Positions 2,282-5,426 of a stretch of DNA of 64,000 bases are shown here, piece by piece (position 1 is the stretch's first letter; every line of letters starts with the position of its first letter). Source of the stretch: Halorarum halophilum (GTDB lineage: Archaea > Halobacteriota > Halobacteria > Halobacteriales > Haloferacaceae). The position numbers and the translations under genes were made by a program. The stretch covers positions 1 to 64,000 of the forward strand of contig NZ_CP058529.1 in assembly GCF_013401515.1 (NCBI RefSeq), read 5' to 3'. The notes under the pieces are model-generated. The model searched no databases and had not been told where the DNA came from. It saw nothing but the letters and a program-made list of their open reading frames with translations.

Positions 2282-2827
2282 TCACCACAGGTCGCGAACG
2301 CGGGCCGGACCGTCGACGTCGTCCAGCACCGCGGAGACGCCGGCCGGCACGTCCTCCCGCCAGGAGTCGTCGCCCGCGGCCATCCGTCGACGGATCTCCG
2401 TCCCGCTCACGGTCCGTTCGGCGCGGACCGTCCGCACCTCCCGTCCGTGCTCGCGCAGGCGGTCGGCCTTCACCTCGTGCCAGTCCTCCAGCACCCTGAG
2501 GAAGTGGACCGCGTCGGCGGGCGCGTAGTGCTCCCAGAGTTCGGGGCGGTTCACCGGGAACGGGAGCACGCGAACTGGAACGCCGAGGTCGGCGTCGGCG
2601 ACGGCGGCGCTGATCATCCGGTCCCGCTCGTGGTACCGGAACGGGTTGTTCCGGGGTTCGCTGCGCTCCGGGTCGGCCGACTCGTCGCGGACGTGCGAGG
2701 GGTCGGCGTTCGTCACCCCGACGAACAGTTCGTCGCACTCGTCGGCCGCCCACCGGAGGTACGCGAGGTGGCCGCCGTGGAACGGCTGGAAGCGTCCGTG
2801 GACGTGCCCGACGATTTCCCGGCTCAC
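2282..2827 (-). CDS. nadM: Archaeal nicotinamide-nucleotide adenylyltransferase (NadM type)
   Basis: A 181-residue nucleotidyltransferase predicted to join NMN and ATP to form NAD in the cytoplasm. The signature HxGH is seen as GRFQPFHGGH near the N-terminus, and the family's C-terminal ISGT-type motif appears as TVSGTEIRRRM. Length is that of archaeal NadM. Translation starts at a GTG that overlaps the TGA of the SelD-like gene upstream (GTGA), so the two are probably translationally coupled as the last two genes of a three-gene operon. Confidence 0.92.
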   Translation of the reverse strand: MSREIVGHVHGRFQPFHGGHLAYLRWAADECDELFVGVTNADPSHVRDESADPERSEPRNNPFRYHERDRMISAAVADADLGVPVRVLPFPVNRPELWEHYAPADAVHFLRVLEDWHEVKADRLREHGREVRTVRAERTVSGTEIRRRMAAGDDSWREDVPAGVSAVLDDVDGPARVRDLW

Positions 2828-4131
2828 GCGGAGTCACGCTCCCCGAGTCCCCCGTCCCACCGCGCTGCGCGCTCGACGTACCGGGAGGCCTCACACCCCG
2901 GTGCAGCAGAGAGCCGCGGGCCGCCCCTGACGACCGTCCCGAGTCGCGTCGGTCGTGAACCCGATACCTCGACGAGTCGGTCGGCAACCCGATCGAGGGC
3001 GCCGGACCGCGCGACGATCGCCAGCGGGCCGTTCGTCTCGACGGTGACGTCGGGCACGGTCCACGCGTCGGCGACCTCGTCGACGCCGGGGAGCAGCGGA
3101 AGCGCCTCGACCCGGAGGGACCGCCCGGCGTCGGCGACGACCCGCCCGATGCCCGCGACCCCCTCGCCTGACACGTCCGTGACGCGGGCGACGTGGCGGT
3201 CGGGGTCGAACGGCTCGCCCGAGTCAGGTCGAAAGGATGCCAGCGCCTCCGCGATCGGTCGCGTGTCGGTCCGCAGCCGTTCGAGTCCGCGCTCGCGGAA
3301 CTCCCTGTCATCGGATGCTACGCCGTGAGCGAAGAGCGCCAGCCCTCCGAGCGGACGGGTGAGCAGGACCTCGACCCCGGGTTCGAGCGGGGGGCGAGCC
3401 GGCGCACGCTGTGCGACCGCGCGGACGCTCGCGCCGAACAGCCACCCCCCACCGTCGTGTTCGACGGTCGCCGGCCGAAGCGCCGTCGCGTCCACCGGAA
3501 CCGAGTCGTCGGTCCACGTTGCGACGGTGTCGTCCGCGGGCAGTTCACCGCGCGGTGCGGCGACGAGCGGTCGGACCTCGCGGTCGGCGACGGCGCCGAC
3601 GGCGTGGAGGTCGTTGCAGGCGTTCAGGATCGCGATCCGGAGCGACTCGGCGGGCGACAGTCCGGGGAAACCGTGGATAACGTCGACGCTCGCCGCCAGC
3701 ACGCCGTCGCGCCGCGGCCCTCGCGGGCGGAGGTGTTCGAGCCAGAGCGCCCCGTCGTCGGCACCCGGAACCTGCACGGCGTGGCCCTTCCCGATCGTGA
3801 CCGGCTGGCCGTCGAGGGCGGCGTACGCCTCGCCCACGGCCCCGGCGAACCGCTCGGAGTCCGCGAGTCGGTCGCCGGCGAACGCGGCGGCGAGGGTCCA
3901 CGCTTCCCCGTCGTCCGTCGGCCCGGTCGGCGCTCGACCGTTCAGCGCCACGACCTCGGTGTCCGACTCGACGCGGTCGCATCGCGGGAGCAGGGCGGCG
4001 TCCCGGTCGGGGCCGAGCGACACCGACGTGTCCGCGAGTCGGGAGCGGATGCGCTCGCGGGCGGGGAGCACGACCCGGTCGAGCGGCGTCTTGCCCGCAC
4101 AGCCGCACCGAACGGCGGCCTCGCGGTTCAT
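2824..4131 (-). CDS. SelD/AIR-synthase-related (PurM-fold) protein
   Basis: This 435-residue protein resembles selenophosphate synthetase. Its N-terminus has C9, C11 and K14 (CGCAGK), matching the catalytic Cys/Lys patch of SelD. The middle has RIAILNACNDLHAVGA, matching the SelD segment R-IA--NA--D--A-G, followed by a LLTRPLGG block like the SelD LTKPLG. An extra segment of about 100 residues separates the N-terminal patch from the core, and the GGHS motif of true SelD is not evident. An upstream ATG at 4143 is in frame; I prefer 4131, whose ATG overlaps the TGA of the upstream gene. It may act in sulfur or selenium chemistry as an ATP-dependent kinase, but the substrate is unknown. Confidence 0.75.
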   Translation of the reverse strand: MNREAAVRCGCAGKTPLDRVVLPARERIRSRLADTSVSLGPDRDAALLPRCDRVESDTEVVALNGRAPTGPTDDGEAWTLAAAFAGDRLADSERFAGAVGEAYAALDGQPVTIGKGHAVQVPGADDGALWLEHLRPRGPRRDGVLAASVDVIHGFPGLSPAESLRIAILNACNDLHAVGAVADREVRPLVAAPRGELPADDTVATWTDDSVPVDATALRPATVEHDGGGWLFGASVRAVAQRAPARPPLEPGVEVLLTRPLGGLALFAHGVASDDREFRERGLERLRTDTRPIAEALASFRPDSGEPFDPDRHVARVTDVSGEGVAGIGRVVADAGRSLRVEALPLLPGVDEVADAWTVPDVTVETNGPLAIVARSGALDRVADRLVEVSGSRPTRLGTVVRGGPRLSAAPGCEASRYVERAARWDGGLGERDSA

Positions 4132-5426
4132 TCCTCGGGCCATAGCGGTCGAACCTCCCGCGTCGGGTAGTCGGGAACTCGCGGCGACCGCCGGAGGCCG
4201 TCGAGCAGCACCCGATCCGCCGCCGACCGTGCGATCCGGAGGAAGTCGCGCCCGCGGACGCGCCCCAGTCCGCCCCCCGCGGCGGGGCGCTCGCCCGTCG
4301 CGGTCACGTCGTCGGTCCGGACCGACTCGGCCGCCACCGTCAGCGGCACGGGCTCGCCCGAGTGGACCACGTCCTCGGTGCTCGGGGTCGTGTGGTCCGC
4401 CGTGACGACCGTGACGAGCTTCGGGTCCGCGAGAGCGCGCTCGACGACCGGTTCCAGCGACGCGTCGATGGCTTCCAGTTCGTCGCGCTTGGCCGCGGGA
4501 CCGGCCGCGTGGGACACCTCGTCCGGTTCGGGGTAATGGACGTGGACGAACTCGTTCGCCTCGACGGCCGCGAGCGCGGCGTCCGCGCGGGCGTCGTACC
4601 CCTCGGGCGGGTCCTCGTGGGTGATGCCGAGGGTTCGCGCGAGGCCGGTCAGCACCGGCTTCGGCGTGAGACTCGCCGCGTCGAGGCCGTGTCGTTCGCG
4701 GAAGGGTTCGGGTTTGGTCGGGGCGCCCGCCCACTTTGAGAGGACCACGTCCGCGGGCGATTTTTCGGTTCGGCCGAGGGGTTCGCCGGCGTCGGCGAGC
4801 ACCTCGCGCGTTCGACGGGTGTACGTCCGGAGCGCCGACGCGGTTCGCTCGGCGGCGTCCGGGTCGGCGGCATCCGCGAGCGGTTCGGCCGCGAGGACGG
4901 GGAACCCCGTGGCGAACGGGTCCACGTCGGTCACGTCGGGCGAGAGCGTGTTCGGCGATTCGACGGTCACCAGCCCGCGGTTCTTCCAGGTGTACTCGAA
5001 CGAGACGGTCGCCTCCGTCGTCTCGACGCGGGCGACGCCCTCGCGCTCGGCCAGCGCCGGGAAGTCGGCGGCGTCGCCCGGGAGGTGTCGGTCGACGATG
5101 GTGGGTCCGTCGAGTTCGGCGAAGGAGGCGGAGCAGACGACGCTTCCCGGCTTCGGGTCGCGGCCGAATCCTCTTGCCTCCAGCACCCCGCGACCAGGAA
5201 CCTCGGCGAGGTCGTAGCCGAACAGGATGGTGTGCGCGCGGTCGCTCGACAGTGGCGTCCCCGGCGCCGAGACGTCCATCTGGCCGTTGATGCCCGCGGC
5301 GGTGAGGCGGTCGAGGTTCGGCGTGTCGGCCGCCTCCAGGGGAGTCCGGCCGTCCAGCGCCGGCGCGGTGCGGTCCGCGGCGCCGTCGAGCAACAGGAGG
5401 AGGATCCGTCGGTCCTTCCCGCGCAT
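4128..5426 (-). CDS. ApgM-type 2,3-bisphosphoglycerate-independent phosphoglycerate mutase homologue
   Basis: A 432-residue member of the alkaline phosphatase/iPGM superfamily. The first metal Asp is in LLLDGAADR, the nucleophile region is SSDRAHTILFGYD (S61-D62-x-A-H65, as in archaeal ApgM), and the late metal ligands are in VTADHTTP and HSGEPVP. The simplest role is interconversion of 3- and 2-phosphoglycerate in gluconeogenesis and glycolysis. However, it heads an operon with a SelD-like protein and NadM, so a different phosphoryl substrate is possible. Its stop overlaps the next start (ATGA). The gene lies 47 nt past the acyl-CoA dehydrogenase stop on the same strand. Confidence 0.82.
   Translation of the reverse strand: MRGKDRRILLLLLDGAADRTAPALDGRTPLEAADTPNLDRLTAAGINGQMDVSAPGTPLSSDRAHTILFGYDLAEVPGRGVLEARGFGRDPKPGSVVCSASFAELDGPTIVDRHLPGDAADFPALAEREGVARVETTEATVSFEYTWKNRGLVTVESPNTLSPDVTDVDPFATGFPVLAAEPLADAADPDAAERTASALRTYTRRTREVLADAGEPLGRTEKSPADVVLSKWAGAPTKPEPFRERHGLDAASLTPKPVLTGLARTLGITHEDPPEGYDARADAALAAVEANEFVHVHYPEPDEVSHAAGPAAKRDELEAIDASLEPVVERALADPKLVTVVTADHTTPSTEDVVHSGEPVPLTVAAESVRTDDVTATGERPAAGGGLGRVRGRDFLRIARSAADRVLLDGLRRSPRVPDYPTREVRPLWPEE

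Follow-up and report, generated by a model that had tools for sequence, protein, structure and literature searches.

Orphan SelD genes, to which no use could be assigned, have for a long time hinted at an undiscovered selenium trait (PMC2276186; PMC5029168). In SelD itself, Asp residues, a Cys-x-x-Lys motif and Asn87 are important, and the catalytic Cys is reported to be absent from other families of the PurM fold (PMC4210487). A SelD-like family, reported from Crenarchaeota only (Sulfolobales and Thermoproteales), was described in the same study and proposed to synthesize thiophosphate (Li et al., 2014; PMC4210487); this hypothetical role is the only one given to the family so far. The NCBIfam model NF038049 (SelD_rel_HyperS) appears to represent this same family, judging from its name, its description and one match over the cut-off in a control genome. 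This match was obtained in one of two control genomes, in the one that we take to be Sulfolobus.

The stretch of DNA analyzed here (the window) comprises the first 64,000 nucleotides of contig NZ_CP058529.1 of the haloarchaeon Halorarum halophilum. A first-pass annotation had described three minus-strand genes chained by ATGA and GTGA overlaps, for an ApgM homolog, a SelD-like protein and NadM, and this arrangement is confirmed, from position 5426 down to 2282 (Table 1). The selD-like start was set at the ATG at 4131, which overlaps the apgM-like stop; the resulting protein has 435 amino acids, and the mechanically called frame of 636 amino acids from 4734 is over-extended. The three-gene view nonetheless requires correction. 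A flavoprotein gene lies 47 bases upstream of the apgM-like gene on the same strand. All haloarchaeal loci that contain an ApgM gene have the flavoprotein gene immediately before it, overlapping or abutting it on the annotated Halobaculum plasmids examined. The unit thus consists of four genes, encoding in order the flavoprotein and the ApgM-like, SelD-like and NadM-like proteins.

Table 1. Features of the four-gene unit, in window coordinates.
Feature	Coordinates	Strand	Basis
ACAD-superfamily (acyl-CoA-dehydrogenase) flavoprotein, gene 1 of the unit, 420 aa	5474..6736	-	homology to Rhodococcus flavoprotein
ApgM-like alkaline-phosphatase-superfamily enzyme, 432 aa	4128..5426	-	TIGR00306, PhpG and 2zkt comparisons
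SelD-like protein of the PurM fold, 435 aa, putative chalcogen 'water dikinase'	2824..4131	-	NF038049, SelD model, AlphaFold
NadM-like nucleotidyltransferase, 181 aa, GTG start	2282..2827	-	TIGR01527 and motifs
ATGA overlap, apgM-like stop/selD-like start	4128..4131	-	sequence
GTGA overlap, selD-like stop/nadM-like start	2824..2827	-	sequence

The SelD-like protein has no match in a Pfam search. Among NCBIfam models it scores 132.6 bits against NF038049 (cut-off 250), with its residues 8-268 aligning to model positions 21-285, insertion included, and 28.6 bits against SelD TIGR00476 (cut-off 125), a score on which identity with SelD was rejected. It belongs near the SelD-related 'HyperS' family NF038049, of which it is a divergent relative. 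The earlier label 'SelD-like' is right as to the closest family, which is SelD-related rather than PurM or ThiL, and wrong if taken to mean SelD. In one Halobacteriota genome, a full-score NF038049 member (L068:930-3492) is flanked by a rhodanese-like and a TusA-like gene, both identified by eye; SirA/TusA or rhodanese neighbors, present beside this true member, were not seen at the annotated loci of the SelD-like genes.

In an alignment of the haloarchaeal orthologs with a full NF038049 member and with SelD from E. coli, methanogens and haloarchaea, Cys17 and Lys20 of the E. coli enzyme correspond to C11 and K14, which belong to the CGCAGK patch already noted (residues 9-14) and are invariant throughout. 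The four metal-binding Asp of SelD are likewise present, Asp51, Asp68, Asp91 and Asp227 (numbers taken from the alignment) corresponding to D44, D150 (positioned manually where the alignment has gaps), D174 and D319. C11, K14, D150, D174 and D319 are invariant in 13/13 orthologs and D44 is nearly so, being Glu in the G123 locus (L032), while N170, the counterpart of Asn87, is Asn or, in some orthologs, His. The insertion reported by the first-pass annotation exists, but measures about 89 residues relative to E. coli SelD instead of about 100, with the first two metal-ligand Asp spaced 106 vs. 17; these extra residues are common to NF038049 and absent from SelD. As also noted then, the GGHS motif is missing, EHDGGGW standing in its place. 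Since searching the PDB with a profile of the SelD-like proteins gave no match, a fold search was performed with an AlphaFold model (mean pLDDT 89.6, built with 13 sequences). Selenophosphate synthetases fill the first 11 places among its PDB matches (best E 6e-16), followed by HypE, ThiL and PurM. In a tree with a small outgroup sample, the haloarchaeal clade and the NF038049 member group apart from SelD with 97% support.

The three partner proteins also deviate from their namesakes. The NadM-like protein retains the nucleotidyltransferase motifs GRFQPFHxGH and SGTxIR, but scores only 78 bits against TIGR01527 (cut-off 181.2), carries an additional loop, also found in the Rhodococcus NadM-like protein (see below) and in more distant relatives, and does not have the canonical NadM NP motif. 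These features set it apart from orthodox NMN adenylyltransferases; the orthodox NadM of the genome is encoded elsewhere (C1:195021-195512, 262.6 bits). The ApgM-like protein scores 247.9 bits against TIGR00306 (cut-off 320) and 163.4 bits against the PhpG model NF038358, far below the cut-off of 545. It matches the solved archaeal ApgM 2zkt at 1e-50, and this alignment upholds the claim of a full set of metal ligands and Ser nucleophile. The genome contains a second phosphoglycerate-mutase homolog, in which the match covers the last part only; it is presumably a bacterial-type GpmI, given its 531-aa frame. As for the flavoprotein, at the position assigned to the catalytic Glu base usual in acyl-CoA dehydrogenases, all haloarchaeal copies and Rhodococcus have Ala (PAGT or PAGA/S; 11/11 aligned), and the enzyme is perhaps not a dehydrogenase of the classical kind.

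Strong SelD-like matches were found in 11 of 391 Halobacteria genomes, and the NadM-like protein (E<=1e-30) in exactly those 11. At all loci examined the two genes are neighbors, overlapping by 4 bases in nearly every case, and this adjacency together with the co-occurrence indicates that the arrangement is not due to chance; gene order is conserved. ApgM-like proteins (E<=1e-40) occur in nine of these genomes and in no others among the 391, namely in the window genome and in eight others that belong to a single genus (Halobaculum, where a name is given). Counted by lineage, this amounts to a handful of genera, so that the co-occurrence is strong but does not represent 11 independent events. 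A scan of genome contigs with the SelD-like protein gave four relatives; all four genes are present in Halorientalis marina, and a Halobacteriales MAG has the SelD-like and NadM-like genes at a contig edge. Several copies lie on megaplasmids and the set is missing from the only further genome sampled in the genus of the window, which suggests that it is mobile. A phage origin was rejected, as phage records gave no match and viral contigs no SelD-like relative by the patterns used. Two matches of 32% identity to the NadM-like protein fall in contigs classed as viral, one of them (L085:4953-5570) without a SelD-like gene in the listed stretch.

The two sampled haloarchaea that lack the ApgM gene, G123 and Halorussus salilacus, encode beside the SelD-like/NadM-like pair a second adenylate kinase that scores over the cut-off, and in Halorussus a Mn-pyrophosphatase-like gene lies downstream. 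Neither ApgM nor the flavoprotein is found near the pair in these genomes, so that they are not obligatory. In G123, two adenylate-kinase homologs flank the pair (L032:6002-10451), in addition to the chromosomal adk. On the Halorussus salilacus plasmid (L074:1-12030), genes for a methionine adenosyltransferase, a TRZ/ATZ-type deaminase, a glycosyltransferase, a methyltransferase and an NMP kinase lie near the pair, surroundings resembling a small biosynthetic cluster.

A related operon exists in bacteria. Five Rhodococcus plasmids carry genes for an acyl-CoA dehydrogenase, SelD, a NadM-like and an ApgM-like protein, in an order unlike the archaeal one and, in the annotated R. aetherivorans copy, with a 4-base overlap at every junction. 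Their SelD proteins are 94-100% identical, and the five copies are therefore regarded as one lineage. The haloarchaeal and Rhodococcus flavoproteins share 43% identity over about 400 aa, and the ApgM-like proteins 35%. Here, SelD is genuine (371.6 bits vs. the cut-off of 125, with both Cys-x-x-Lys and GGHS), and our best evidence is that SelD and the SelD-like protein fill one and the same slot, which argues that they make the same kind of product. More distant NadM-like relatives, from R. opacus, R. pyridinivorans, Treponema and Enterococcus, adjoin dikinases of the PPDK_N type, once with a DHH/DHHA2 gene next, and these pairs show the same logic of a dikinase and a nucleotidyltransferase. 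Such pairs were seen on bacterial plasmids (L081:9983-14346, L079:2436-5737, L080:5801-9137, L082:9989-12499); after the pair come, in Treponema, a cysteine desulfurase and a radical SAM protein annotated as belonging to the viperin family, and in R. opacus a radical SAM protein.

The first-pass annotation had suggested that the set could be a phosphoryl-transfer pathway acting on sulfur, selenium or a nucleotide instead of plain glycolysis. For sulfur or selenium, this idea is well supported by gene order, by the invariant Cys and Lys, by the SelD-related family, by the orthodox NadM encoded elsewhere and by the Rhodococcus SelD, although the fourth gene had been missed and the NadM-like protein is not orthodox. 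We see about an even chance that the four genes encode a pathway of chalcogen activation. With ATP and a donor of hydrogen sulfide or selenide, the SelD-like protein would form thiophosphate or selenophosphate, AMP and Pi, as suggested by its fold, its residues and the SelD swap. Given their enzyme class and neighbors, the NadM-like protein would then join this product to an NTP, releasing PPi and leaving a nucleoside diphosphate that ends in a chalcogen, and the flavoprotein would, in a last step, oxidize or desaturate the product. Between these two steps, the ApgM-like enzyme could, in analogy to PhpF/PhpG, transfer the chalcogenophosphoryl group to an acceptor or hydrolyze it. The extra adk fits the release of AMP by a dikinase, and the pyrophosphatase-like gene of Halorussus that of PPi by a nucleotidyltransferase; a dikinase followed by a nucleotidyltransferase is thus a suggestive explanation for these neighbors, seen in two genomes and in one, respectively, but they could also be coincidental. 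As to the element, Rhodococcus favors selenium, while the affiliation with NF038049 favors sulfur. TusA, rhodanese or cysteine desulfurase, as suppliers of sulfur or selenium, were not seen adjacent to the unit. Counter-evidence comes from the loss of GGHS and from the His at the Asn87 position in some orthologs. Furthermore, the Rhodococcus SelD, whose operon is known from plasmids, could serve selenocysteine.

In another arrangement of the same enzymes, the NadM-like protein would make an NDP-activated molecule from a phosphate ester, thio- or selenophosphate would displace the NDP, and the ApgM-like enzyme would remove the phosphate. This fits all four enzyme classes equally well and follows the logic of selenoneine synthesis by SenB/SenC, where selenophosphate meets a nucleotide sugar (a UDP-sugar in SenB). 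It is nevertheless improbable in our estimation, as a SenB-like glycosyltransferase is absent from the unit and the ties of NadM-like relatives to PPDK-type dikinases suggest that the dikinase product is itself nucleotidylated. These same relatives, beside which chalcogen chemistry is not evident, would also be compatible with the SelD-like protein phosphorylating an organic substrate devoid of chalcogen, its Cys being structural and the unit producing an ordinary nucleotide-activated metabolite. The PurM-fold relatives ThiL, PurM and HypE indeed act on organic or other substrates, and the lost GGHS and the inserted 89-residue subdomain point in the same direction; we still consider this quite improbable in view of the Cys-x-x-Lys invariant in 13 orthologs, the reported lack of this Cys in other PurM-fold families (PMC4210487) and the true SelD in the same slot of the Rhodococcus operon.

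Taken alone, the family names would make the unit an ordinary operon of glycolysis and NAD synthesis, with a second NadM and ApgM placed by chance beside an orphan SelD-like gene. This was rejected as very improbable, since an orthodox NadM and another phosphoglycerate-mutase homolog are encoded elsewhere in the genome, the NadM-like protein is missing the NP motif, and co-occurrence and coupling are strict across genera and domains. Very improbable, too, is a phosphonate (C-P) pathway resembling that of phosphinothricin, with counterparts of PhpF and PhpG: the pairing of an NMNAT-fold and an ApgM-like protein recalls PhpF/PhpG, the PhpG model giving 163 bits here and 184 bits for the Rhodococcus protein, but none of the 11 genomes has a PEP mutase match that passes the cut-off (at best 99.5 vs. 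319.55 bits).

Chalcogen activation, if true, would imply a new selenium or sulfur metabolite and the nucleotidylation of a chalcogenophosphate, a reaction that, to our knowledge, belongs to no described pathway. A description of the gene set was not found in the open-licence literature searched, including two SelD surveys, a paper on SelD evolution and a review. The unit provides a concrete, testable pathway with defined partners in two domains of life, built around either a true SelD or a SelD-like protein. It is possible, albeit doubtful, that haloarchaea and Rhodococcus have in common a further SelD-based chalcogen trait, in which a nucleotidylated seleno- or thiophosphate is built into a small molecule unlike selenocysteine, selenouridine, the Se-cofactor or selenoneine.

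Compared with known systems, the NadM-like and ApgM-like proteins are homologous to archaeal NadM and ApgM and retain their catalytic motifs, but both fall under the curated cut-offs, and the former differs by its loop and missing NP motif. The PhpF/PhpG pair of phosphinothricin synthesis similarly combines an NMNAT-fold nucleotidyltransferase with an ApgM homolog, an analogy that is backed by publications for PhpF (PMC6697681; PMC8976061) and by an NCBIfam model name for PhpG; here, in contrast, a SelD-type dikinase is present, PEP mutase is not over the cut-off, and the PhpG score is far too low. With the selenocysteine, selenouridine, Se-cofactor and selenoneine traits, the proposed pathway would share activation of the selenophosphate type. 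SelD, YqeB and tRNA-Sec were not detected over the cut-off in the 11 genomes bearing the set, and we know of none of these traits with NadM-, ApgM- and ACAD-like partners. The SelD-like protein is homologous to NF038049 over most of its length, including the insertion, Cys-x-x-Lys and the acidic residues, but it is encoded next to NadM-, ApgM- and ACAD-like proteins, where the family has SirA/TusA, Prx-like or rhodanese neighbors, and its host is a halophile instead of a hyperthermophilic sulfur reducer. Finally, although set apart from SelD by its score (28.6 bits vs. 125), its 89-residue insertion and the lost GGHS, it shares with SelD the fold and the catalytic residues, and a true SelD occupies its slot in Rhodococcus.
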